64,000 nucleotides of DNA. Source: Polytrichum commune. Taxonomy: Eukaryota > Streptophyta > Polytrichopsida > Polytrichales > Polytrichaceae. The stretch lies in NCBI GenBank assembly GCA_950295325.1, contig OX485807.1, forward strand, positions 25,331,666-25,395,665, read 5' to 3'. A program made the translations under genes and the position numbers. The notes under the pieces are model-generated. The model did not search any database. It had not been told where the DNA came from and worked only from the letters and a program-made list of their open reading frames with translations. Positions 7,918 through 48,175 of the stretch are shown here, one piece after another (the first letter of the stretch is position 1; every line of letters starts with the position of its first letter).

Positions 7918-10900
7918 CACACTACCAGTTTTTAACTTCCTCTCTCAAATCATCCACACACGAATGCTCAATAAGTCCCATTGCACAAAAGTTTGGGAAG
8001 CAACCAACCAAAAACTCATGTATCACTTTGCAAAAATGCACCCGTGCTGAGCTATATATATAGGGGATTATTTAACCACAAATATGCGTTGCACAATCAC
8101 ATGATCTATCAAATTTTGATTTGACATCGCACATATGAAGAGGAGCAAGGTATCAACTTTGTCTTAAAATTGATAAATTCGAGAAGAGGAGCAAGGTATT
8201 AGTTGTGTGTTAGAATTAATAAACTCTTTGTGATCATTTTAACCAATGTGTGGTTGATTCAACAAAATCATGTATATAAATGAAAAAGAGAAAAATATAG
8301 AGGTTTAAAACGTACCCACTAGACATTTCTAAGCTCCAAGGTTTCCACCTCTTCAACACCTATCACCTTGAGCATGGCCACATTTACTCAACCATCTTCA
8401 ACCAAATTCGATGCCCTTAAGCACCCCACTTTTAAGAAGTATGGTATGAAAAATGACCCTATTGGTTGGACAACCCTACGATGCATGCCCTCTTTAACCT
8501 TCCACCCAATGTCGCAACAACAACTGAATGTCTAATAAATGTCAATCATAGGATTTTCCAAGGGCTTCCTTTAACTCCCAATCTTTCAACCAATACAACA
8601 AGCAAATGTAGAGTACCCAAGGGAATATAACAAATGCCAACTTATCCAAAAACTGACCAATCACAACTTTCTTGATCATATACATGGTTACCAAGTAGAG
8701 AGGGGCAAATGTAATTGCCAATTGGAAGGAGAAAGTGGAACATGATCACATCCCAATCGTTCATTCCAAGTGAAACTCTTGTTGTAGACAAATCTATTGA
8801 TGTATACGATATATTTAGTTAATACCAATCTACTTACGACTCTATGATTAATAATGTGGCCATAAGCAAGTGTGTGTGTGGGGGAGGGGGGGGGGTTCTT
8901 GCAACTATATTGATTTTGTATATATTCTAAAATGTAGTGGATACGATGTAAGGAGTTAACAACAATTATTTTTTGAATGTTGAGAATGTTCAAATAAATA
9001 TAAAGGAAACACAAATAGCATGGACCATATAATTAATGTTTTGTTAAAGAATTGGTGTGATTTTATAGTAAATTCATAATTCATTCAAAGATTTGTGAAC
9101 TCATAATATGTGGCCATTAATTCTAAAAAGTTGTAGTTAAACCTCATAATGAAATCACAAGGGCTTCAAGAGACGGGTTCATAATAGATGACCAAAACTC
9201 AATTGAAAACTAACCACTTAAATATCTCATAGGTCACATTTAGGTTTTACTTGTTTAAATCCAAATTCTATAAAGTTTATTCATGGTCTAAGTAGGAGGA
9301 TTCACATGGGATTGAAGCATAAGCCTTCAAGGGGTGTCACGTGTGGCCCTCTATGAAAATCCCTTACATCTTTGTAAGAAAACAATACTTTCAATACGGT
9401 TATTTCTTTTATGGTCAATATTTTTCAAGTTATATAGTGACGTTTGGGTATGAATGGAAACCTTATATTTTCATTATTGGAATTTGTTTTTTAGAATTTA
9501 GGATCAAGAAGATTGCCCTTACAACTGGAGTATCATATTATAAGCAACCACCATTTGCATGATTTGTAACATGTTTCTTGTTACTTTTCAAATGCATAAA
9601 CTAACGAGTGCCAAAATCATTTTGTGAGAGCATAACAAGTGGATGTCAACAACAAATGAACAGTCTAGCCTATATCTCCGAGTGCAATGTTCTTTCCCAT
9701 CCCATCTCTTCCTATCCCGACAAGTCTTTTCCCTACTATGTAACCATTGTCTTATTATCCCTTCCTTTGCTACTCTTAGGGAGTCTCTTCCTTTCGGCTC
9801 CTTACTTCAACGAGGAGTTGTTTAACTTTTTACAACACCCAATGCTTGCAAGAGTTGCAAGTGACCACCTTGCAAATTCCATTATTTGGAAATCCTCTAG
9901 CTTGTAAAAATCTATTTTGTGGCATTTTTGCAACATATGTAAACACATTTTGCAATTGGTTACAAAAATGTGATGTTGTATTAGTTTGCATTCATGTCAC
10001 TCTCCAATAACTATAAAGAGCTGGGCAATTGTATTTTATTGTGGAGGACCTCACGGAAACAAAATTCCTTTATGCTTTAGCTTTTTTGTTTAGTGTAGGG
10101 AACAACATGAGCATCATCATAACCCACCACCTGAAATGAACATCTTAAAGATGCAACACATGAAACAAAACAAAGGCGATTTTGTATTTCGACATTACAA
10201 TCTCAAAAAATCGCCGAGCTTCATGTTTAAAAGAAAAGATCAAAAGTTTATTAGATTAGACGATGGAATGCAATATGGAAGAATCACATAAAGAGGCACA
10301 AATGATCACATGTCAAGGGTTGGAGAAAGAGACAAATTTTGTTTCATCTCACCTTGTCTTGAAGAAGAACAACAATGGTAGGTCATTCTCCTTTGGAAAG
10401 TCTATTCCATGCTCACTCCCAATCTACCTTGTCAATCCATGTTGATAAAGTAATGTCCAACACAAAACCCTCAAATTAAACTCTTTCGCAAATGATGTAG
10501 TCACAATTGCAATACTATCAAATATGAATTTTCATGCATTGAGTTGTCAAAAAAGGGTTTGACAATGTGAGGTCCAAAGTTAGTAGATTCTATCTCCATG
10601 ACATATAATTTTATAATTTGTAACCCTAGGGTTCTCCTTACTATTACAAAATTAAAAACTATGTAGACTTAATTCTACCATCATCACTAAACTCTTGCAT
10701 TGTCAACACAATGTTAGTTTCTCGATCCACACATAGATTGGTTGGTGTGTTGTCCGTGGATGTGAAATATAACAACATAAAGATTTGCTAGTTGTTTGTT
10801 ATAAATCATAACTTGTTGCTCATAATTGCAATTGCATGCCCTTCATAGTGTGTGAGTATTTGTTGGATTTACAAGTCACCTTTTTTTTTCAATCCACAAG

Positions 10901-11376
10901 ATGCCATTCTAGAGAGTTTTTTGTGTTTGCTTTAGAACTAAAACTTTATGTATAAGGGTTTATGCAACAAAAATGATTGCAAGATGACTTTTTTGGATTG
11001 AACTCTATAAACACTTGATGGAGTTGTTTTAGAGCTCTTTCAAGTGTTGCGTGTCACAATATTGTTCTATAGGTCATTTCACCTTGCTATATATTGGCCA
11101 CATGGCTTGATACGAAGTTGAATGGCTAGGGTTTGTCCTTGGGAGTTGTATGTTGAAGGATAAAACATTGGATTCGAAGGAGACTCTCAATATTTGAACA
11201 AAATCGTATGAGCTTTTGGATTCTAAAGTTGCTTTATATATGGCATATACAAAGTGCAAATGTTCTTAGGTGCATTCTATGCATTATTATAGAACATGAT
11301 TTGATAGTTTTTTATGTGATGCTCGCAAATAAAACACATGTAGAAGGACAAAATATACTTGTCGATCTCAACTTGA
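7918..11376. other. No gene supported; AT-rich intergenic
   Basis: A near-duplicate GAGGAGCAAGGTAT occurs at about 8140 and 8185 within a ~50 bp tandem duplication. A G-rich run lies at 8879-8896. Reading frames of up to ~100 residues (for example 9608-9907) show no family features and overlap AT-rich low-complexity sequence. Confidence 0.4.
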
Positions 11377-11460
11377 AAAGAGAAAACCCTTTGGTGGAAA
11401 CCACGTTTCATCATCCTCGGAGGAGCCAACTTTGTGATTTTTGATTTTGATGCCGGCGGC

Positions 11461-13924
11461 ATGGAAGTTGTGGACACCCAAAATGAATCTCGTCAACAAG
11501 TACGAGGTCCCTCATACGGAGGCAATGAGGACCTTGAAAATCAATATGAGGTTGGACATGTGGGCTTGGATACGTCACGCTCAACCTTACCGGAGGATTG
11601 TGAAACTCAAGCTCAAAGTATCGAAGAAGGTGGGGAACAAAATGCTTCAAACCCAAATGCTATGATGGGAAAAATATCTACTTCTACGCGCAATGGTGCA
11701 TTTGGTCATGGACCAAAGGAAGCCGATCGAATTCCAACATGTGCAAGGGATAGACCTGCAACTCGATTAAGTCAAAGGAAAAAATATGTGAACCCTAGGG
11801 AGCTTCTTGGTCCTAATCGAGCGAGACAAAGAGGAATTACAACTCCTAGTTCAAGGGGTGGTTCCCAAACACCAAGATCTGCTGCCTCTTCCACATCTTC
11901 AAGGAACTCACAAAGTCCAAGGTACTGCCTAGCGGAAAAGCCACCACCCTTGCCACCACCTCCCACTCGACCTCGCAAATACAACAACCCACGAGCATTG
12001 AAGCCAAAACGAAGTCACCACTCTCCACAAATAAAAATTCAACAAAAACCTTGGGTTATTCCCCCTCCGAATCTACACTATGATGACATATGCGTACAGG
12101 AGCTGATTGTAACACCAACCTATTGCGCACGAGATAAAAACCCTGTGCCTAGGCGTGCAAGGAGGCTTTCACCAGCTGTTCAAGGCCGGGTTAGGAAAAG
12201 ACAACCCCAAAGTTGTATGTTGCCAAGTTGCTTTGGGTGGGGTTCAGAGGAGCACAAAAAAAGATCCAAGGATCCCACTCTAAAGAACGGATTTACTGAC
12301 ACACCTTTGCAACCTATCAAGTATACAACATCTGCACGTACGGGTCATTGTTTGCAAAAAGACATTTGCGACAGTAGTGAAATTTGGGCATCGCCTTTGC
12401 AAGCACAACCAACTATGTGCAGGAATCAAGGCATTCCACCAAGTGTGCCCCGATCATTGCACATGAGGTTAAAACATAGGTAACCACACCATCAACTCTT
12501 TGCTTCTTAATAAAGTTTAATTATTGTCCATTTTTGCATGAGTAGAATTGACAAAATCCGCATTATCAACTTGACACTTTGTAGATTTATTCTCTAAAGA
12601 TGAATAAATAAGTAAGTTACGTACATGGTATGCAAATGCAAAGTAAATGACATCACCTAGACACTTTATTGCAATATCAAAATATTCTTTGAGATTTTAT
12701 GGATGTGTTTATGGCAGTGATGGCGATGAATGTTGGAACCGCACCAAAAAAAAACAAATGGAGTCAAAGAGTGGTCCATCAACTCCTATTCGTACCAAAA
12801 CCGATTCTCGAATGTGTTCATCTGCAGGCAACACACCTCGAAAAGTAGAAAGTAGGCTTAAAGGCAACTCTCCCAACGAGTTAACCCCTCGGTCAGGTGA
12901 AAACTATGCACTCACTTCAAGAGGAGTTGTTAAACCAATGCAAGTTGCGCCAAAAGCTCAAAGGAAGATATTCAAAAAAATTGTCCAAAAGGTGAAGTTA
13001 GGAAGGATAACTGGAAAGAAAATGCTAGTGAAAGGAGGGGCTAAAGGGAAGAGAATGCTATTGAAAGGTGGGGCTAAAGGAAAGAAATTGTTGATAATAG
13101 GAGGAATTAAAGGAAAGAGATTAGTTATGAAAGGAAAGGCTAAAGGGAAAAAACTATTAATTAAAGTAAAAGTTAAAGGAAAGAAACTATTGTTTAAAGT
13201 AAAAGCTAAAGGAAAGAAATTACTAACGAAAGGAGGAGGCAAAGGGAAGAAACTACTAATGAAAGGAGGAGCTAAAGGGAAGGTGATGTTAATGAAAGGA
13301 GGTGCTAAAGGGAAAGCAATGTTAATGAAAGGAGCAGTGAAAGGAAGACAAATGTTAGTGAAAGGAGGGGTGAAAGGAAAACAAATGTTAGTGAGAGGAG
13401 GGGTGAAGGGAAAACAAATGTTTGTGAAAGGAGGGGTGAAAGGAAAACAAATGTTATTGAAAGGAAAGGTCAAAGGAAAGCAAATGTTAGTGAAAGGAGG
13501 GAAGATTGCATCAAGAGTGTTGAAAGCAGGAAAGGCTGGAGGTGCTAAATTAGTAGTAAAGGGAAAAACTTTATTCACTAAAAGAAGGACAGGAGAAGGA
13601 AGTGAAGGTGTAAAAACTACAAAAACAAAAACCAAGAATAGGTTCAAAGGTAGCAAGGCAATGATAAAGGGAGTAAAGAGGGCTCCGAAAGTGTTATTCA
13701 AAGGTGTAAAAAGATGCTCAAAATTTTTGATGGATGGAGGGAAACTAGGAGCAAATATGTTGAGAGAGGGTGGTAGAAAAGGCTCAAAGCTTATTGGGAA
13801 TGGAGGAAGGGGGTGTTCTTATATTTTTGCTTGTTGGCGAGGTCGATCATCAACACCGAGTGTTCTAGAATCACACCCTAATGTTTTGGAAACAGTACCG
13901 GAGGTTATGGAGTCATCTTCATGA
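11461..13924 (+). CDS. Two-exon gene of unknown function with C-terminal Lys/Gly 11-residue repeats
   Basis: Exon 1 is 11461-12479 and exon 2 is 12718-13924, giving about 741 residues. The join is inferred: exon 1 stays open up to ACATAG|GTAACC and exon 2 stays open after TTATGGCAG|TGATGG. The phases agree (AG plus T makes Ser), and the 238 bp between is AT-rich. The frame is open further upstream to a TGA at 11374, so an earlier exon is possible; ATG 11461 has a good context. Residues ~95-190 are Pro/Ser/Arg-rich with two related KY-x-NPR motifs (KKYVNPRELL and RKYNNPRALK). From ~440 a tandem array of 11-residue units (pattern K-K/Q-M/L-L-hyd-K-G-G-x-K-G) runs for about 15 good copies, then about 7 degenerate ones to ~720. 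No family is recognised. The strong positive charge suggests nucleic-acid, membrane or polyanion binding, which is inference only. Confidence 0.65.
12480..12717 (+). other. Inferred intron of the 11-residue-repeat gene
   Basis: The donor is GTAACC and the acceptor is TTATGGCAG, with AT-rich sequence between. Without this intron, two separate frames (11461-12483 and one opening near 12647) would be read. The matching phase and the short gap favour one gene. Confidence 0.6.
13016..13510 (+). repeat. 33 bp coding minisatellite (polypurine strand)
   Basis: About 15 tandem 33 bp units encode the Lys/Gly 11-residue repeats. Later units such as those at 13340-13500 are nearly identical in DNA, so copy number has probably changed recently. 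The + strand is very rich in A and G over ~500 bases. The stop-free antisense strand is a by-product of this composition. Confidence 0.9.
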
Positions 13925-14050
13925 GGAGCTTGAAGTACACTTTACCATGTATCCCTAATGTTTCAAAAGGTTAAATTGTACATTATTGAGATTTTGATGT
14001 AACATTTTACTCCCAAAGTCTTTTGTCATTTTTGACATTGTAACATACAT

Positions 14051-14056
14051 AATAAA
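14051..14056 (+). terminator. Possible poly(A) signal
   Basis: AATAAA lies 127 bases after the stop codon of the 11-residue-repeat gene, in AT-rich sequence. The position suits a plant near-upstream element. Confidence 0.4.
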
Positions 14057-14360
14057 ATTGGATCCGCCTTGGGTTGAACTACAAACTTAGTTGTTGACAA
14101 TTAGAGTACTTGGCAGCCACTTTGTAATATAGCAACAGTTGCAGATCACTATATGAGATTCCCTTTTGAGTTTTTATGGGCCACTTGTATTGTGATGATC
14201 TGAGTCATAATGTGAAATACCTATCAAATCCGAAATTTCTCTTCAACAGAATCTCCCTGTACATATGTTTGCCTGTCAGACATTTCAAGCAATTTAAGAA
14301 AGCGATGAGGTAACTTAGTTGAATTAGTCTGAGCAACTAAATTGAATTAGTGACAAAATC

Positions 14361-15230
14361 ATGTCTGGCCAATGTAGTTGTTTTAATGTACGAATGTCTG
14401 CTGATGATGAATCAGAGTGAGCCACTAAGCTTAGATTCCTGCAACCTGTCGATTTACTACTATCTTGGCGAGAATCATGATGGTGTTGCAATTTAAGCAC
14501 TTAAGAGGTGAAGAAGGGAGAGCTGGTGTTTCTGTCTTGAGTCCTGTGCAAACTGTGGAATAGGACTGCAGCCTTTTTTTTTTTCAATTTTTTTTTTTCA
14601 GAGATTTGGGGGTTCTGGGTTTCAGATACTTCTGATGTTGCCACAAGATGTCCGGTCAATGCAATTGCTTCCATGTATGAAAGTCTGCTGATGATGAATC
14701 AAAAGAGAGCCAATGGAGTACTGCGACCTGTGAAACCTCCTTTCTGCGGATCCTCATGACTCTGGCCTACTAAGCTCTTGCAAATTCAATTAGAGGTGAA
14801 GAAGGAAGAGCTGGAGATTTCTGCATTAAGTGCTGTATGTACAAATCATATAAAAAGTGCAACCTTTTTTTCTTCCAGATTTTCTATTTCAGAATTTTAG
14901 GGTTGTGGGTTTTAGATACTTATGATGTTGCCACTTGTATGCACAACAATGTCCAGCCAATGTAGGTGTTTTCATTTATAAAAAGTCTGCTAATGATGAA
15001 TTACAGTTACTGCAACCTGTACTTAACTTAGAAACTTTCTCTCTCTGAGGAGGATCATGAGCGTCTAGCTCATGCGATGCAAGGCGAAGAAAGGGGCGAT
15101 GGAATTAAGGGATTCTGTCTTGAGTGCTGCATGACAAATTGTGGAAAAGCGCAACCTTTATGTCGAGAAATTTCATCTCAGAAATTTTGGGGTTCTGAGT
15201 TCCAGATAGATACTTACATGAGAGATGCTA
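14361..15230 (+). repeat. Three-copy ~290 bp tandem repeat
   Basis: Units start near 14361, 14646 and 14946. Each holds, in order, a TGTC(C/T)GGCCAATG-like word, AGTCTGCT(G/A)ATGATGAAT, GCAACCTGT, AGGTGAAGAAG(G)GAGAGCTG, a poly(T) stretch, and a TTTTGGGTT-type word followed by AGATACTT. The units differ by many substitutions and small indels. No frame is shared. It lies between the repeat-protein gene and the MRS2 gene. Confidence 0.75.
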
Positions 15231-16536
15231 AGGCCTCCAATGGATCTGCTTTACACTCTAAGAAAATGTAGGTTTATCTCAAGTGCAGCCCGAAGATATT
15301 ATGGAGGCCAGGAGAGAGCACAATGTGCTTGGGTTTTGCGGGACAAATTGAGATGAGATGCGTTGAGAGGGTTACCCAGATTTTGGGAGCAGTTTTTCTT
15401 GAGTCTAAATTCAGCTGAGTTAAGTTCTCTCAATTAGCTTCCAAATCGTAGGTTGCTAGGGATTTGCTCACCGGTCGGTTGGGAAGAAGTAATCCTAGCT
15501 TGTTTCAATCATATCCTCGACATCGGGGTTCGGAGCTCATGGGTTTCTACTACAGTGGAGCATGCATGGCTTGTAAGTAGGATATGATTGCCAACTTGAT
15601 CATTTCACATTTTTGCTTGTCGCAATTTTTGTCAAATTTGTCTGCATGCACAGGCAGACAGGTGTAAGTAGCGATGATGTGCTTTTTGTTTCGAGGTTGA
15701 CACTTTGCTTGTCATCCAATTGCAGTAAATCTCCACACACCAGACTTCCAATTGGTTCCAACAGCATAATAGTACCAATGACCATCTTCGCAAACAGGGT
15801 AACTTAACTTAGGTCTGGGAGAGAGATTGATTCGGACGCAACACTCTGCCTAAGTAACCTAACCTATTCATCCTTCAAGGATTCCTTCAAGGAGCACCGC
15901 GGGTTTTCATCGGGGTCGGCGAATTGCCACTTGGCATCTATATGTTCCTTCAACAGTGATCATCAAGGAATCCTGGCACTGCCCTCGGAGTGCGTGCCGT
16001 TGGCCTAGGGTTTTAGGATTCAGAAAGCAGCTGGGTCCACATGTGACCACCATTAATTAACTTTCGAAATGGAAAAGTGCGAGTCGCCTCCGAACATGCA
16101 AACCCAATTTCAATGTCGGTCAAAACTGGAGTATATACAGTAGGAAACCAATCCAGACAACAAATTATTTGCAGGGTGGGAAAATCGGAGGTATTAGCCC
16201 CATTGGAGTTCTCGAATCCATTCGAGCCACCCGCTTTCTTTCAATCTAATTCGTCTCCACTCAATTTGTGCTCAGTATCCTCCCAAAAGCTTCCGAAACT
16301 TCGAGTTTTGTATAGTTGTCACCCATTTTGTTGTAACCCTGATTACTGAAGATGCTTGGTTAGTAAAGATCAAACTTAGCAGCCGCTGTTTGGGGTCCCT
16401 TTCGTCCCTTCCGTCCCTTTCGAATTCCTGATGTGATGATGTTGAGGATGCCGTGAGTGAGTGAGTGAGTTAATAGTGACCCATGCCTTTTCTTTTAAGA
16501 AGTAATTGACACCAGATTGCAGAAAAATCTTCCGCC
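15231..16536. promoter_or_regulatory. Upstream region of the MRS2 gene, no gene seen
   Basis: About 1.3 kb without a supported gene. A GTGA microsatellite occurs at 16455-16470. The sequence just before the MRS2 start (16500-16536) is a plausible 5'UTR with CGCC directly before ATGG. No obvious TATA box was found. The frame at 16077-16349 has no family features. Confidence 0.35.
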
Positions 16537-19500
16537 ATGGCTGAGAACCTCAAAGCGAGGCTTCTCCCTCCCAGGCCATCAACACCACCTGGAGTTGGAG
16601 GAGATAACTCTACGGACGTGAGTTTGAAGTATCGAAGCAACTTAATCTTGAAGAGGCCACTGTTTCAGGGCATGGATATGGTAGGGTTAAAGAAACGGGG
16701 TCATGGTGTCCGTTCCTGGATTCGGATCGACCCAGCAGGGAACTCACAAATCCTGGAAGTTGACAAAACTTCCTTAATGAGACGATGCGACCTCCCAGCG
16801 AGAGATCTTCGTCTTCTTGACCCGCTGTTCGTCTACCCAAGCACCATATTAGGGCGAGAGAAGGCTATTGTTGTCAACTTGGAGCGAATTCGGTGCATCA
16901 TCACTGCGGATGAGGTTTTGCTCTTGAACTCGCTGGACAATGTGGTGTTGCAATATGTTTCTGAGCTTCAAGGAAGGTTGGGGTACAAGCTTCGGGCTTT
17001 GCAGCTGCTCAAACCTGATGAGCAGGACCGGAAGCGAGCTTTGAGTGATGGGGACATGTTCAGTGGCAGTTCGGCGGATGACCTGCCTTTTGAGTTTCGG
17101 GCTCTTGAAGTTGCGCTTGAATTTGCTTGCTCGTATCTCGATGCGCAGGTATGTCGGTGTGTTAACCCTAATTCCTTTGTTCTCTGCCATCTTTTATCGC
17201 ATCCTTCCATCTTTATTCCCCAAGCTTGCTGTTGACAGATTGTTTGATTGTTGTCCTCAATCATCTACTTCACGTAGCAGCGGAGTTGCAGGCCCGAATT
17301 CACCCATCTTGCACTTATCTATGAAGCTCTGGCTTTGACATTGACAGGTCACAGATTGTATTCCTCCATAACCTACTTCACCTAGCAAGTCCTGCATCTT
17401 TCACCTGCCCTAACCATGACGTCTAGGCCTCAATAATCTACTTGACCTAGAAACTCCAGCACCACACTCCCACTTCTTGCACTAACCATGAAGCTCTGGC
17501 TTCAAATTTGACAGATTGTTGTCTTCAATCATCTACTTTGAGGTGCAGGAATTCCTGCACCTCATTCACCTGGTCTTGTGAAGTCTTTGCACTAACCAAG
17601 AAGCTCTAGATTTGATACTGATTCAATAAGCTACTTGACCTAGCAAGCCCTGCACTACATTCACCTGGTCTTGCACTACATTCACATCTATGCACTAACC
17701 ATGAAGTCTTATACTAACCATGAAGCTCCGGCTTGGATATCGACTCAATAATCTATTTGACCTGGAAAGTCCTGCACAGCATTCTCCTGGTCTTGCACTA
17801 ATCATGAAGTCTTGCACTGACCATGAATCTTTGGGTTCAATAATGACAGATCGTTGTCATCAGTAATCTACTTCACTCTAGCAAGTCCTGCATCTTTCAT
17901 TTGATCTTGCACTCACCTGCATGAAGTTGTGCCACAGCCTGGATTGGATTGGATTTGACACCTTTATTGTGCTGGCGCTGCAGGCAACAGAGTTACAGCA
18001 GGAGGTGTACCCAGTTCTTGATGAGCTTACTACCAAAATTAGCACACTTAACCTCGAGCATGTTCGCCGGCTCAAGAGTCGCCTTGTTGCAATGACAAGA
18101 CGTGTTCAAAAGGTCAGCCTCAATCTCTCTTGCACGCACCTCAGGTGTAATGTATTTTGTGTTTGCAACCTTCTCTGTGAACAAATGCTTCAATTCAGTG
18201 GGCTAATAATATACCTCGGGAATCCGAGTCCAAAACGTTCCCCCTAGAAGTAGAGGGATTTTACAAATATCTGTCAACAGTTTAAACCTTCAGTTGAGAG
18301 AAAGATGTATACTTTGTTATCATTGGGATGCATGGATTTTGAGTGCATTACCAGATAATCCTAGAGAATAATCATATCCACGTAGAAAAGCTTCGTTGCA
18401 GCATCGTCAATTTGTCACATAGAATGGCTTAGGTTTTCGACCCAAAATCACAACAAGCAGTTGTCGCGGATTTGCGTTGTTGGTGTGAAGTTTAATACGT
18501 TAGTCCAAATGGTAGTATGGACTTATTTTTTTGTTTTGTTTTGTTTGGTTTTTTTTTTTTTTTTTTTTGGACATACAGGTGCGAGATGAGATTGAACAAC
18601 TCATGGATGATGACCGGGACATGGCTGAGATGTATCTCACGGAGAAAAAGGAGCAGAACTTGGAATTTTCCTTTTTGGACCAGAAGTCAACATCCTTTTT
18701 CAACTATAGTAATGTTGGCGTTGGGGGTTCGATGTCAGCTCCTGTTTCCCCTGTTGGTTCACCAATTAATGAACCACTTCATCCAGTAATTGAGAAAAGA
18801 TTGGATAAGTCATTAAGCCTTTCGAGGTCAAGGCAAGAGAGTCAGGCCAGTTCACAAACTGCAGTGGAGGAGCTGGAAATGCTGCTTGAAGCATACTTTG
18901 TGGTTATTGATGGCACCTTGAACAAGCTCACAACGGTAATAATTTTCCACTTTTTCCTCTTGTAAAACTAGGTGTTGGGTTCTGCATAATTACTGACAGA
19001 GGCGTGCTAGTGAGGGCCACTTTACACTGTGGCCAAGGGCCGTGACCATGAAATTGTGAGGGCCTTTGAAACTCATCCAAAGACTGTACCATGGACGAAT
19101 TAAATTGAATTTTGTGTGGTCACTGGCCTTCAAGTGTAGTGTATAGGCATATGCGACCTGGCTCTCAACCTATTTCAATACCATCCTATTCATGTGGGCT
19201 CTTGCAGACAATATCTTATAGGAAATCAAGGGTTGTGATGATATTTTGAAGTGTCAGGGTTTTTCCATTTTGTGTTAGGCCCACCTCTTTGAGGTGGGCT
19301 TGACATAAAATTCTGTAGACCCTGATACATTATCCATTGCATGCCATGTAGGACTCCATGTAGTTTTTTTCATCCATTCAAACTTTCTTGGTCCCTTAGG
19401 TCCTTAACCTCTAGTGTGAAGTGAAGTGGGATGGTCTTAGCATTTTCCACCAATGAGATATTTTAGATTTTAATGGTCATGCGCCCTCAAGCACTAGTAC

Positions 19501-20997: not shown

Positions 20998-22369
20998 CAG
21001 TAATCTCCCACTTAAGTACGCACCTATGATCCGGGAGAACCGACGGCTAGTTCATTATCAGCCGATGGATTTCCCCTCATGGCCGGCCCAAATTTCCGAC
21101 CATCAGATGGCAATCCGACTGTAATTTCAATCCTCCGGCAATTAGCCGATGGACCAGAAAATGTAGCCGATTCTTCTTGTGGGTTACTGGATTTCAACCG
21201 GAAGAAGTATTCAAATTTCAAATACTGGCCGATACCCGTGTCTACATCTAACTTAGAAAGTATGATGCGTGTTGCTTTGGAAGGCCCAAACAATGATTTT
21301 GATGACATTCTAACAAGTGTTCTAGATCTTTGGAAGGATGCTGCTAAGTTTCGCTATTTGTATAGCAATCCAGAGCGCTATTTGTCTGGGGCATCTGATG
21401 ATGCACTTGAGGAAGTACCCTAAACCTTAAACTTTTTGAATTATGCAACCTTTCCATGACCAAATCCAATTGCTTCTATGAAGAATTGGGGGACCCTTGG
21501 CCTTCAAGCGGTGAAGGCATTGCTAGGTTCAATTCCTGCCAAGGATATTAACTCTTCAAATTTAAAGTTTTGAACATGCCTTTCTTTTCACTTATTCAAG
21601 ATTTTGTACTAAGAAATGATTTCTAATAACTTTTCATACATTTTTTAAACAATTAGTGCCGATATGAATTTCATTTAATCGGATATTGGCCAATGAAAAT
21701 ATGAGAATATAGGCAATTGGCCGCTTGATTTTACAAAAGACCGGCTCTTGCCGATGTAAATTGGAAAAAAACCGACCCTTCGTAGCAACTACCGGCAATT
21801 AGCCACTAAGGCTTCAAAAACTTCCCGAACTTTGGTACGCACTTTGAACCGAAGTCATTGGTGCGCACTTAGTTGGTAGGTGTGTACTTTGCAAATTTCC
21901 ATCGAACCAAAAGAAATGAGCGGTTTTAAAAATATCGATGATGCAAACAACAAAGAATATTGTGTTGTTATGTTGGAGGACGTTGATGAAGTTCTAGAAA
22001 TGATGCAAATTGAAGAAGAACCACCTATCGATGACGAAATCCAGCTTATTAAGACATTTATGAATCTAAAAGTGCTACCGATTTTAAAGGCTTTGAAGCT
22101 CTACACAACACTATCCTCGACATCGATGACCAATTGCTTTGTTTTGATGTTCAAATGGAAGCTGGACAAATGTATGATGAACTGTGACGATCATTTGAGA
22201 TGTTTCTTCGAAACTTTAACAAATTGACATTGAATGTCAAGCATAAAAAATCATGCATTTGCAGCAAATGACTCTGCATGACATGTACAAAGTATAAAGT
22301 ATGAACCCTGATTTTTGTCAAAAAAATTTCGCACTTAACCGGGATGCGTACTTAAGTGGGAGATTACTG
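20998..22369 (+). mobile_element. hAT-like non-autonomous element with 25 bp perfect terminal repeats
   Basis: The left end 20998-21022 (starting CAGTAATCTCCCACTT) and right end 22345-22369 are perfect 25 bp inverted repeats. A frame at 21079-21423 (114 residues) ends with MRVALEGP...ILDLWKD-type sequence that resembles the C-terminal tail of plant hAT transposases (from memory of the family; moderate). A second frame, 21880-22227, is unrecognised and acidic. The rest of the transposase is absent. The 8 bp flanks do not match, so no target duplication is claimed; a GGTCAT/ATGACC pair just outside hints that the true ends may extend a few bases further. Confidence 0.75.
21079..21423 (+). pseudogene. 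Possible hAT transposase C-terminal fragment
   Basis: A 114-residue frame inside the 20998-22369 element. The last ~55 residues hold LESMMRVALEGP, ILTSVLDLWKDAAKFRYLY and a polar tail. Plant hAT transposases often end with an (L)MRI-x-(I/L)EGP and LW-x-K pattern after the dimerisation domain, which this resembles. The first half (RPSDGNPTVISILRQLADGP) is not recognised. There is no DDE core and no BED finger, so it cannot act alone. Confidence 0.4.
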
Positions 22370-26479: not shown

Positions 26480-26762
26480 TCAGGGTGTGATGAATTTCCT
26501 GTCAAACGGTAAGAATGAGAAACTTTGAAAGAGGAAGCTCACCTTAAGCTCTTAAGATAGCAGTCGTGACAGGATTAAGATGTCGAGGCGTGAGCAAAAA
26601 GTTATGAATCTTGCACCCCAAGGGCTGGACGAAACCATCATCAACACTCACAAGCTTTACACTTCCACTAAATTCCTGCAAATTAAACAAACCACTTCAA
26701 CTTCCCACACTTGGGATGGGTAATTTTAAGTACGGTGGACTTGTAGGTGTAAACGGCAACAA
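26480..26762. promoter_or_regulatory. Possible shared (bidirectional) promoter
   Basis: A ~280 bp gap between the minus-strand candidate gene and the SRPK start at 26763. No clear TATA box or named element is visible. The divergent arrangement is inferred from the flanking frames only. Confidence 0.25.
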
Positions 26763-28676
26763 ATGACAAAAACTAGAAAGGCGGCTATGGCGTACAAGAA
26801 GATAACTTCAGCGCTGAAAGGAGCAAAGATTCCGAGTGGGAGAAGGATGACCAAGGCAATGGGAAGTACAGGACCGAAACCCAAATTGAAGAAGATGCCA
26901 AAAATGAAGAGAAAGGCAAAGAAACCACGAAGAGAGAGTGTGCGAAGCTTGACATCGAGCGGTGGCAACACCGAAGGTTCAGAGGAGGAGGATCAGGAGG
27001 AGATGGATGCCGAGACAAGCGTTGATGCATCATCTCGAAAGCCATCACCGAGGGACTCCAAGAGTGATGCTACCTCAAGAAGCTCATGGGCCAGTAGCAT
27101 AGGGGCACCATCCGAGAGCCATAGCAGCGAGTGCGTGGATTCGGAGGCTGAGAGTGACGAAATCAACGCACATGAGTCTCTCCATGTCGAAGTTGGAAGC
27201 ACATTCAAGCAAGGTCGGTACAAGGTGCACAGGAAGCTTGGCTATGGCGCCTATTCCACCGTGTGGCTAGCCTGGGACCAAACAGACAACAAGTATGTAG
27301 CGCTAAAAATCCAGAATTGCTCCAAGGATTGCACGAAGGCAGCCATGGAGGAGATCAAGATCCACAAACAAGTCGCTGCGAAAGATACCGCGGGGGATAA
27401 GTCTGTGGTAACCCTACTGGACCACTTCGAGCACCGGGGATCCTCGCATAAGGCAAAGCATGTGTGCATGGTGTTCGAGTATTTGGGAGACAATTTGCTA
27501 ACTCTCCTCAAGGCCAACAAATACAAGGGGTTACCCTTAGATGTTGTCAAAAATCTCTCAAGGCAGATCCTCACAGGCTTGAATTACCTCCACAATGACC
27601 TAAAAATCATCCACACAGACTTGAAACCCGAGAATGTGTTGCTCATGTCGCCCCTGGACCCATCCAAGGACCCCAGAAACACTAGCCATGGGGTTGGAGC
27701 CATTCCGAAGAGACATCGCTCCCCCACTCCAGCACCCCCGAAAGTGCAGCCTGGCACCTCCGAACCTCCCAACATGGAGGATGACAAAGGTGACACCCGA
27801 TCCAGAGCTGGATCGAGAGCAGCCAGCCCTGCGAGCAAAGGAAGACAAGAAAACATGGGGAATAATGAAGATGCACAAGGGGCCAGCCATGCTGCATCAA
27901 CAGCCATTAATGATGCTGGGAAGCAGCACGTTGAAGAAACGGGGCAGTTAACCTCCGAGCCTTCACTCGACAGGCTTGCCATTGACTCCGACCCCGACAT
28001 AGCCAGAGACTCCGACATGTACAACAAACAAAGAAAATGCTCCTCGAAGGCTAACCCTTCCTCTCCATCACAGCAGCAGCAGCAGCAGTATCAGCAATCT
28101 GCCTTACAGCAAGTGAAGTTCTGTCTCCCTAAACCTGGAAGAAGGGCAGGGAATGATGGAATTGGACCCATTGACATCCGCTGCAAGATTGTGGACTTAG
28201 GCACCGCATGCTGGACTGATAAGCATTTTACCGATGACATCCAGACTCGCCCTTACCGATGCCCCGAAGTGCTTTTGGGCGCCAAATACTCCACTTCGGC
28301 TGACATGTGGTCTTTTGCGTGCCTTGTATTCGAGCTGGCCACCGGGAACGTGCTATTCAACCCTCGCACTGGTGGCAGTGATTACAACCGTGATGAGGAT
28401 CATTTGGCACAGATTACCCAAATTCTTGGCCCCATCCCCAAGAAGCTGCTTGACTATGGTGTCCATGCAAGGGAGTATTTGACGAAGCGGGGGGAGCTTC
28501 GTAGGATGAAGTCACGACGTAGCTGTCCATTGCACAAGCTGCTTGTCAAAGATTACAAGTTCAACGAGAAGGATGCACAGGAGTTGTCCGCCTTCTTGAT
28601 TCCTTTGCTGGACTTGACACCGGAGAATCGCCCCACCGCTGACCGATGCCTGCAACACCCTTGGCTTATGTCATGA
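26763..28676 (+). CDS. SR-protein-specific kinase (SRPK family), intronless
   Basis: A serine/threonine kinase of 637 residues that would phosphorylate RS repeats of splicing factors in cytoplasm and nucleus. Residues 1-60 are strongly basic and 65-145 Ser/acid-rich. The kinase starts at ~152: glycine loop GYGAYSTVW 161-169, lysine in VALKIQ ~182, HTDLKPEN 284-291 (Thr in place of Arg is the SRPK hallmark), DLG 478-480 in place of DFG, RPYRCPEVLLG ~496-506, DMWSFACLVFEL ~514-525, and a C-terminal lobe ending RPTADRCLQHPW. A ~180-residue spacer (295-470) splits the lobes, as in SRPKs, and holds a Gln run. Plant SRPK genes usually contain introns, and this one has none, so it may be a retrocopy or a lineage that lost them. 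All catalytic residues are present. Start ATG 26763 follows CAACAA; an in-frame ATG at 26787 is the alternative. Confidence 0.95.
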   Translation: MTKTRKAAMAYKKITSALKGAKIPSGRRMTKAMGSTGPKPKLKKMPKMKRKAKKPRRESVRSLTSSGGNTEGSEEEDQEEMDAETSVDASSRKPSPRDSKSDATSRSSWASSIGAPSESHSSECVDSEAESDEINAHESLHVEVGSTFKQGRYKVHRKLGYGAYSTVWLAWDQTDNKYVALKIQNCSKDCTKAAMEEIKIHKQVAAKDTAGDKSVVTLLDHFEHRGSSHKAKHVCMVFEYLGDNLLTLLKANKYKGLPLDVVKNLSRQILTGLNYLHNDLKIIHTDLKPENVLLMSPLDPSKDPRNTSHGVGAIPKRHRSPTPAPPKVQPGTSEPPNMEDDKGDTRSRAGSRAASPASKGRQENMGNNEDAQGASHAASTAINDAGKQHVEETGQLTSEPSLDRLAIDSDPDIARDSDMYNKQRKCSSKANPSSPSQQQQQQYQQSALQQVKFCLPKPGRRAGNDGIGPIDIRCKIVDLGTACWTDKHFTDDIQTRPYRCPEVLLGAKYSTSADMWSFACLVFELATGNVLFNPRTGGSDYNRDEDHLAQITQILGPIPKKLLDYGVHAREYLTKRGELRRMKSRRSCPLHKLLVKDYKFNEKDAQELSAFLIPLLDLTPENRPTADRCLQHPWLMS

Positions 28677-44746: not shown

Positions 44747-45859
44747 CAGGGTTGTCTATCCTGCCGTTATGACGGTGTCGTGCCGTCGTGTCGTGTCGTG
44801 TCGTGACGGACCCCTCCGTCACGACACAATAGGGTCCACGTAGGGTCAACATAGGAGGAACGGACTAGGGTGGGTAAAATACTTACCTTCTTGCCAAGGT
44901 GGCGTCCTATGTGGCAGAAAACGCCGACGTGGTCGTGGATATGCCTAGCGCCAAGTAAATCATTTTGCCATTTTGTTTATCATTTTGTTAAAATCAAAGT
45001 AATAAAAAACGACTATGGAGGGTGTGGGGCGGACGGGGGTGGGGGGGGAACGGAGCGGACGGGGTCGGGAACGGGGGCGGGAACGGGGGGGGAACGGAGC
45101 GGACGGGGTTGGGAACGGGGGCGGACGGGGGGGAACGGGAGCGGACGGGGTCGGGAACGGGGGTGGACGGGGGGGAACGGGAGCGGACGGGGTCGGGAAC
45201 GGGGGCGGACGGGGGGGGGAACGGGAGCGGACGGGGTCGGGAACGGGGGCGGACGGAGGGGGGGGGAATTTTTTAAAAAAAAAATGGGGCGGACGGGGAA
45301 GGGGGGGGGGGGAAAAAAAAAAACTGGGGCGAACGGGGGAGCGGACGGAGGGGCGGACGGGGGTGAACGGGGCGCGGACGGGGGGGAACGGGGCGTACGG
45401 GGTTGGGAACGGAGCGGACGGGGGGGGAACGGGGCGTACGGGGTTGGGAACGGAGCGGACGGGGTCGGGAACGGGGGCAGACGGAGGGGGGGGAAATTTT
45501 TTTTAAAAATGGGGCGGACGGGGAAGGGGGGGGGGAACCTGGGGCGGACGGAGGGGCGGACGGGGGGGAACGGGGCGTACGGGGTTGGGAACGGAGCGGA
45601 CGGGGTCGGGAACAGGGGCGGACGGGCGCTAGTAATTTTTTCCCCACTTTACCTCTACTTTGCTGACATGTCATCACACGTGGACATCTTACATCCTACG
45701 TGTCCGAAATGGGGTAATGTAATTACACACAAAATTCGGTAAAATTCAAGTCCGTCAGGATAAAGACAACATCCGGCATAATGTCGTGACGGATATGTGT
45801 CGTGACGGCACGACATTATGCCGGGATTAGCCTCCGTCACGACACAATAGACAACCCTG
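44747..45859. mobile_element. Non-autonomous hAT element with perfect 8 bp target duplication
   Basis: The ends are CAGGGTTGTCTAT and its exact complement. Flanks are TAGGTTGA on both sides (44739-44746 and 45860-45867). CAG-starting ends plus an 8 bp duplication are diagnostic of hAT. Subterminal regions hold GTCGTGACGGA palindromes and GTCGTG repeats on both sides. The core (45010-45630) is a G-rich minisatellite. It encodes no transposase. It sits inside the left arm of the foldback structure and hence is younger than it. Confidence 0.93.
45010..45630 (+). repeat. G-rich minisatellite inside the hAT element
   Basis: Repeats of the words GGGAACGG, GCGGACGGGG and GGGTCGGGAACGGGG, interrupted by two A/T runs (45266-45283, 45314-45324) and a T/A run near 45496-45508. 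The strand is extremely G-biased with many closely spaced runs of 3-10 G, so the + strand could form G-quadruplexes. Long Gly/Arg-rich or Pro/Arg-rich frames here are composition artefacts. Confidence 0.9.
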
Positions 45860-46154: not shown

Positions 46155-46725
46155 ATATGCAACTATTAGTTGTTGTGCAGAGGTTTATGAATGCTCGTTC
46201 GAATATATGCAGCCACGATTGCTCCGCGGATATTTGCGAATGCTCATTCCTAAATATGCAACTATTGGTGGTTGCACAGAGGTTTGCGAACACCCGTTCG
46301 AGAATATACAACCCTAGTTGCTCCGCGGAGGTTTGCAAACACTCGTTCTTAAATAGGCAGCCTAGGTTGTTACGCAGAGGTTTACAAACGCCCGTTCGTA
46401 AACATACAACCTCGGTCGCTGCCCCAAGATTTACAGACGCGTTCATAAACATGCACCCGGTCGCTACCTAGAGGTTTATGAACGTCCGTTCGCAAACGTG
46501 CAACCCTGGTCGTTGCGCAGAGGTTTATGAAAGACCATTCACAAACGTGCAACCCCGATCGTTGCGCAGAGGTTTACGAATGCCCATTCATAAACATGCA
46601 GTCCTGGTCATTACCCCTACGTTTACGAACGCCCATTCGTAAACATGTAGCCTGGTCGTTGCGTAGAGGTTTATGAACGTCCATTTGTAAACATGCAGCT
46701 CAATCGTTGTGTAGAGGTTTACGAA
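46155..46725 (+). repeat. Palindromic ~50 bp tandem array (central)
   Basis: About 11-12 units with a ~49-54 bp period. Each unit carries GAGGTTTACGAACG-like sequence then CGTTCGTAAACATGCA, so GTTTACGAACG and CGTTCGTAAAC form a hairpin separated by 1-3 bases, followed by CCC(C/T)GGTCGTTGCGCA. The array sits between the two inverted arms. Confidence 0.9.
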
Positions 46726-47944: not shown

Positions 47945-48175
47945 AACGAATGCCCGTTCGTAAACATGCAACCCGAGTCGTTGCGCAGAGGTTTACGAAT
48001 GCCCTTTCGTAAACATGCAACCCCAGTTGTTGCACAGAGGTTTACAAACGCATGTTCGTAAACATGCAGCCCTAGTCGCTGCCGTGAGGTTTACGAACGG
48101 GCGTTCATAAACATGTCGCACCGGTCGCTGCCGCAAGGTTTATGAACGCTCGTTCGTAAATATGCAGCCCCGCAC
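47945..48175 (+). repeat. Palindromic ~50 bp tandem array (right outer)
   Basis: About 4.5 units of the same repeat as 46155-46725, in the same orientation, directly after the right arm. Confidence 0.9.

Follow-up and report, generated by a model that had tools for sequence, protein, structure and literature searches.

A probable two-exon gene of Polytrichum commune for a lysine- and glycine-rich hendecad repeat protein

What is encoded by a reading frame whose C-terminal part is built from 11-residue units loaded with lysine and glycine, and is it a gene at all? The question was raised by positions 11461-13924 of a 64,000-nucleotide stretch of Polytrichum commune DNA (GenBank assembly GCA_950295325.1, contig OX485807.1, positions 25,331,666 to 25,395,665, forward strand), here called the window. 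Judging from the sequence, this is probably a two-exon gene. Its product may be a polycation that is disordered until it meets an anionic surface, on which it folds and forms a coat, with membranes favored over nucleic acid, a tentative reading to which we give a probability of about 0.4. The protein would act at most like perilipin 4 or synuclein and, by the tests applied, is a member of none of the families tested. The proposed gene has the following parts.

11461-12479, + strand: exon 1, encoding aa 1-339 plus 2 bases of codon 340; basic, Pro/Ser/Arg-rich
11782-11799, + strand: KYVNPR motif, aa 108-113
11977-11994, + strand: KYNNPR motif, aa 173-178
12480-12717, + strand: intron, GT-AG, 238 bases, 70% A+T, proposed from the sequence only
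12718-13924, + strand: exon 2, including the stop codon
13019-13480, + strand: hendecad array of 14 regular 11-residue units, aa 441-594; 53 Lys/Arg, 0 Asp/Glu
13481-13654, + strand: broken fifteenth unit (QMLVKGGKIAS) and a middle in which units are weak or lost, aa 595-652
13655-13819, + strand: tail of 5 degenerate units, aa 653-707; amphipathic when placed on a 3-11 helix
13820-13921, + strand: C-terminal end, YIFACW to MESSS; net charge of the last 30 residues -2
14051-14056, + strand: possible polyadenylation signal AATAAA, by pattern only

The gene coordinates, the frame and the intron agreed with those of the original prediction. The putative splice signals (GT at 12480-12481, AG at 12716-12717) preserve the phase across the junction, and the joined exons would yield the predicted 741 residues, with an isoelectric point (pI) of 10.8 and a net charge of +118. 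Residues 1-440 are basic, with much Pro, Ser and Arg; the region encoded by exon 1 is probably disordered. Both KY-x-NPR motifs reported earlier were recovered, and a looser third one, KNPVPR, lies near aa 226. The protein contains 15 cysteines, and two patches combine cysteine with aromatic residues: SCFGW (12226-12240, aa 256-260) and GCSYIFACW (13811-13837, aa 705-713). A basic, Pro/Ser/Arg-rich N-terminal half, which we take to resemble plant microtubule proteins, would also suit a scaffold that binds microtubules or another acidic protein surface. No microtubule-binding Pfam family matched either exon, however, and we consider such a role very improbable.

Exon 1 lies within an open frame that begins at 11377 and runs for 368 codons, a length that did not occur in 1000 dinucleotide-preserving shuffles of 10901-12700 (largest 240). 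Its 3-base periodicity exceeded that of all 355 comparison windows, and the periodicity of the C-terminal part after the array was reached by 2 of 746; these comparison windows overlap and come from stretches presumed, not proven, to be non-coding. In the exon 2 linker the periodicity was weak and was equalled by 84 of 755 windows. GC content by codon position in exon 1 was 0.52, 0.53 and 0.33.

Among the 14 array units, the ratio of non-synonymous to synonymous differences (pN/pS) was 0.41 in the gene frame; the two remaining forward frames gave 0.80 and 1.08. Neutral simulations, which kept the array base composition and allowed no in-frame stops, gave mean values of 0.87 and 0.79, and values of 0.41 or lower in 0.8% and 2.2% of cases (600 runs each). 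These figures speak moderately for selection on the protein. A stronger sign of protein-level selection is seen in the tail (aa 653-711), whose fit to the residue profile of the array was reached by 0 of 20,000 shuffles despite the divergence of its DNA, the tail units (aa 653-707) being 39-61% identical to the array consensus.

Codon usage gave the gene no support and was counted against it, on the strength of the scores for exon 1 and the array. With a model built from all 24 kinase loci of the genome (leave-one-out), codon usage resembled neither that of the kinases nor that of the two neighboring genes matched by Pfam. The per-codon score of exon 1 was -0.068 in frame and -0.050 and -0.088 in the other forward frames, so that its own frame (+0) was not the best of the three; the non-coding mean was -0.175, 9.9% of 3000 non-coding segments scored at least as high as exon 1, and the kinases ranged from 0.009 to 0.29. 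For synonymous choice alone, exon 1 scored -0.107 (the non-coding mean was -0.082 and 62% of the segments scored at least as high; the kinases spanned -0.025 to 0.144). Within the array, frame +1 (0.158) scored above the gene's own frame (-0.040). These results favor a rival account in which there is no gene here but a polypurine 33-base satellite open by chance, or in which the antisense frame at 12958-13818 (286 aa) is the real one; the latter is open, with a pN/pS of 0.53, and shares its wobble base with the sense frame. Such an account is at odds with the periodicity of exon 1 and of the post-array part and with the preservation of the tail units at the protein level; nor was a second copy of the array DNA found in the genome, in a search that skips simple repeats. 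We regard it as the least probable of all the explanations considered.

The repeat itself was delimited by period and by profile. Tandem Repeats Finder placed 14.8 copies of a 33-base unit at 13013-13501 (score 347), and residue identity at lag 11 was 0.48, compared with 0.06-0.21 at the other lags up to 44, multiples of 11 excluded. Fourteen regular units follow one another without gaps (aa 441-594), with a broken fifteenth at aa 595-605. Support for units is weak in the middle (aa 606-650), where the fit to the array profile was reached by 1325 of 20,000 shuffles, and two units proposed ahead of the array are unsupported (13,423 of 20,000). About 20 units are supported, and the 22 first proposed form the upper end. 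KVLFKGVKRCS and NMLREGGRKGS, cited in the original prediction as examples, are real degenerate units. On average the DNA of array units differs at 9.5 of 33 bases, and neighboring pairs 1-2, 5-6, 7-8, 11-12 and 12-13 share 29-31 of 33. Relative to this array the tail appears to be the older part, an order of events that we infer.

The gene was found once in the genome. Searches of the 408 Mb score the best candidates only, and the absence of a second copy is not proved by them. Exon 1 matched only itself (1 match of 7 candidates). Exon 2 matched itself and, weakly, three loci holding 3-17 stops, two of which contain 33-base-period arrays of a different sequence. The DNA at 10400-14600, in the search that skips simple repeats, had besides its own locus a single match, a nearby duplication within the 3' flank (14361-14600 versus 14648-14891, 68% identity), and the C-terminal 97 residues matched themselves and one stretch at E 1.4 containing a stop. 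The gene is possibly restricted to its lineage.

The statement that the protein matches no known family held in all collections searched, namely Pfam, NCBIfam, PHROGs, PDB, IMG/VR, GTDB and phages; none of these is a plant collection, and the protein is an orphan within that reach. In Pfam, the sole match of either exon at E up to 1 was PCC_BT (E 0.009), which was rejected and attributed to composition, its 16.6 bits lying below the cut-off of 23.5. NCBIfam and PHROGs gave no match up to E 1. Against PDB, exon 2 had no match, exon 1 had two at E 0.6, and a profile of the unit had four weak ones (E 0.04-3.1). No relative was confirmed in IMG/VR viral contigs (25, 558 and 3 stretches checked in three scans) or in GTDB genomes (69 and 55 stretches checked), and none was found in phages; the contig scans take exact matches to short peptides as seeds and are most sensitive to close relatives. 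In the literature, no Lys/Gly hendecad array was found in titles and abstract openings, which is not proof of absence in print.

The composition of the hendecad region carries the functional reading. The 154 residues of the array include 52 bulky hydrophobic ones beside the 53 Lys/Arg and no Pro, and the protein lacks acidic residues from aa 402 to 632, which is why it is read as a polycation. Glycine makes up 17-23% of the hendecad region, depending on the section. Because of this glycine content and of like-charge repulsion, the region would be unstructured when free. On contact with an anionic surface its lysines may drive folding into a helix, with the tail acting as an ordinary amphipathic helix and each array unit adding avidity. 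The likeliest surface would be an acidic membrane or lipid body, put first in view of the bulky hydrophobic residues that make up a third of the array, and nucleic acid would come second. By analogy with perilipin 4 and synuclein, the protein would bind an anionic partner multivalently and fold on contact; the 11-mer helices of those two form upon lipid contact, according to PMC5889406. A helix predicted by AlphaFold2 from five aligned units agrees with this reading. The make-up is lipid-like in that the hydrophobic fractions of the array and of aa 653-711 (0.39 and 0.37), and the mean moment of the tail (0.478), fall within the published range of lipid binders. Table 1 of that paper lists hydrophobic fractions of 0.35 for Plin4, 0.47 for alpha-synuclein and 0.32 for CCT-alpha, and its moments are 0.30-0.48 for synuclein, Plin3, ApoA-I and CCT-alpha, as calculated with Heliquest, for which the scale and windows may differ from ours.

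Binding to membranes, nucleic acid or another polyanion had been guessed in the original prediction, and with 53 basic and 0 acidic residues it would be the natural reading. Chromatin condensation, named there as one option, is less favored, because the hydrophobic fraction is like that of lipid-binding helices and unlike that of linker histone H1 tails. More broadly, a polycation of the nucleus or nucleolus, condensing or bridging DNA or RNA, would agree with the net charge of +118 over 741 residues, the pI of 10.8 and the 12 Ser/Thr-Pro sites in residues 1-440. The enrichment of these sites is unclear, however (shuffle mean 7.8; 6.7% of 5000 shuffles reach 12), and residues 1-440 hold, among other basic clusters, a single match to K[KR]x[KR], a narrow pattern resembling nuclear localization signals. 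No DNA-binding Pfam family matched either exon, and the 52 bulky hydrophobic residues of the array are also unfavorable. This role is possible, if on the unlikely side.

Several results weigh against surface binding by a folding array. In 3-11 geometry, the whole-length hydrophobic moment of the array was 0.193, which was reached by 29 of 5000 residue shuffles but matched by 69% of column permutations; the mean over 18-residue windows was 0.221, reached by 218 of 500 shuffles. Both values are below the 0.257 of Plin4, and the charge of +53 in 154 compares with about +1 per 33 residues in perilipin. Given exon 2 as a lone sequence, AlphaFold2 predicted the array as strands, with a predicted local distance difference test (pLDDT) score of 80-88 by block over aa 441-550. 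The helical model obtained from aligned units was built on just 4 rows of one protein, covers 55 residues and has a predicted template modeling (pTM) score of 0.35.

A simple amphipathic 3-11 helix does not describe the array; it does describe the degenerate tail. The tail moment was 0.451 in 3-11 geometry (0 of 5000 residue shuffles, 3.8% of column permutations) and its 18-residue mean was reached by 0 of 500 shuffles. The 11-residue helical wheel suggested in the original prediction thus suits the tail and fails for the array. On the 3-11 wheel, the glycines of the array are centered at 168 degrees and the lysines at 8 degrees, on opposite sides; the Gly stripe was reached by 11% and the Lys stripe by 39% of permutations, and this opposition is suggestive at most.

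Within the units, positions 2 and 3 are hydrophobic in 14/14 array and 5/5 tail units (counting Ala at position 2 in the tail), and positions 6 and 10 carry a small residue (Gly/Ala/Ser/Cys) in 12/14 and 5/5. If helical, the units might therefore self-assemble into a cationic bundle or filament, with positions 2, 3, 6 and 10 (hydrophobic, hydrophobic, Gly, Gly) as the core of a hendecad coiled coil, an assignment that we assume from hendecad rules. The 11-residue period is present, and the helix predicted from aligned units fits this picture. The a/d/e/h core would be Gly, Met/Leu, Leu and Gly, however, and such a Gly-rich core has poor helix propensity; like charges would repel, the array column order was no better than its permutations, and the Gly stripe was equalled by 11% of them. 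We find self-assembly decidedly unlikely.

Structure prediction of the repeat region, also suggested originally, gave contradictory models. Beside the array strands, the single-sequence model had helices with pLDDT <50 across much of the tail, and a Foldseek search with it against PDB found no convincing match (best E 0.26). Given aligned units (a five-unit query, two other array stretches and the tail, with one unit common to two rows), AlphaFold2 predicted a single unbroken helix, its pLDDT ranging over blocks from 60 to 75. A beta-structured repeat, each unit forming a strand and a turn of a beta-solenoid or meander, would account for the strands, and the unit profile weakly matched Kaede residues 13-33 (E 0.04), presumably a beta-hairpin. 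The strongest array harmonics, 2/11 and 5/11, each exceeded 5000 of 5000 residue shuffles. They were also reached by 16% and 36% of column permutations, respectively, so that three clustered hydrophobic residues account for them no less well than a strand would. Together with the Foldseek result and the helix from aligned units, this makes a beta repeat improbable. AlphaFold2 is reported to yield confident but unrealistic beta-solenoids for repeats (PMC11795689). The two predictions cancel, and neither counts as evidence of a fold; that AlphaFold2 folds one repeat in opposite ways depending on the input calls for caution.

Among known proteins, perilipin 4 shares with the array long gap-free tandem 11-residue units, weak amphipathicity, a similar hydrophobic fraction and few aromatic residues. 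It differs in charge, its units being nearly neutral and those of the array purely cationic. A weakly charged amphipathic 3-11 helix of the perilipin type was not found in the array; the tail alone is amphipathic. For the perilipin PAT domain and C-terminal 4-helix bundle, no perilipin Pfam model matched either exon at E up to 1. Alpha-synuclein also has an 11-residue unit, but the array lacks acidic residues and its 14 units are gap-free. LEA group 3 proteins likewise occur in plants and have an 11-residue unit; their units are Ala-rich with mixed acidic and basic residues, whereas those of the array are made of Lys, Gly, Leu, Met and Val. Neither the synuclein model nor the LEA_4 11-mer model of Pfam, a library that we take to include these and perilipin, matched either exon. 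The linker histone H1 tail is Lys-rich and acid-poor, as is the array, and has an Ala/Pro/Lys make-up; the array is instead rich in Leu, Met and Val without Pro, and no Pfam match to the winged-helix globular domain was found in either exon.

Three neighboring frames were scanned with Pfam. The open frame at 16510-17235 matched as an exon of an MRS2-like magnesium transporter, that at 26730-28676 matched a protein kinase, and that at 21016-21420 matched no Pfam family. The kinase is a single 648-codon frame whose domain was matched in two stretches, with a long Ser/Gln-rich insert between them. Elsewhere in the window, a G-rich minisatellite (45026-45626, main unit ~44 bases) has open frames of up to 295 codons on both strands, and two arrays (46172-46725 and 47946-48170) apparently consist of one 49-base unit with a palindrome-like stretch, ACGAACGCCCGTTCGT. 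Outside the window, 14 chlorophyll a/b-binding matches of identical score (177.1 bits) lie within ~95 kb of genome contig C5 (1751760-1846160). One LHC protein of the genome had as its second-best PDB match, behind a multidomain chain of 620 residues, 8htu_U; the 8HTU structure is labelled PpPSI-L in a figure legend of PMC10005731, presumably for Physcomitrium patens, and this makes a moss the likely source. Genome matches fell on contigs C1-C7 only, and hair-cap mosses have n=7.

A bolder version of the surface-binding reading is a long shot. The protein may be a tunable, plant-specific polycation, in which a hendecad helix with one small-xxx-small motif, mostly GxxxG, per 11 residues and an acid-free array forms close-packed bundles on an acidic membrane or polyanion, the number of units setting the avidity. 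If true, this design would have no counterpart among the families tested. Perilipins, synucleins, LEA proteins and apolipoproteins serve in lipid binding or in protection against drying, and carry both charges. A purely cationic, glycine-containing version with many similar units would lend itself to testing how charge and glycine affect the choice of surface, and the number of units could be compared between strains.
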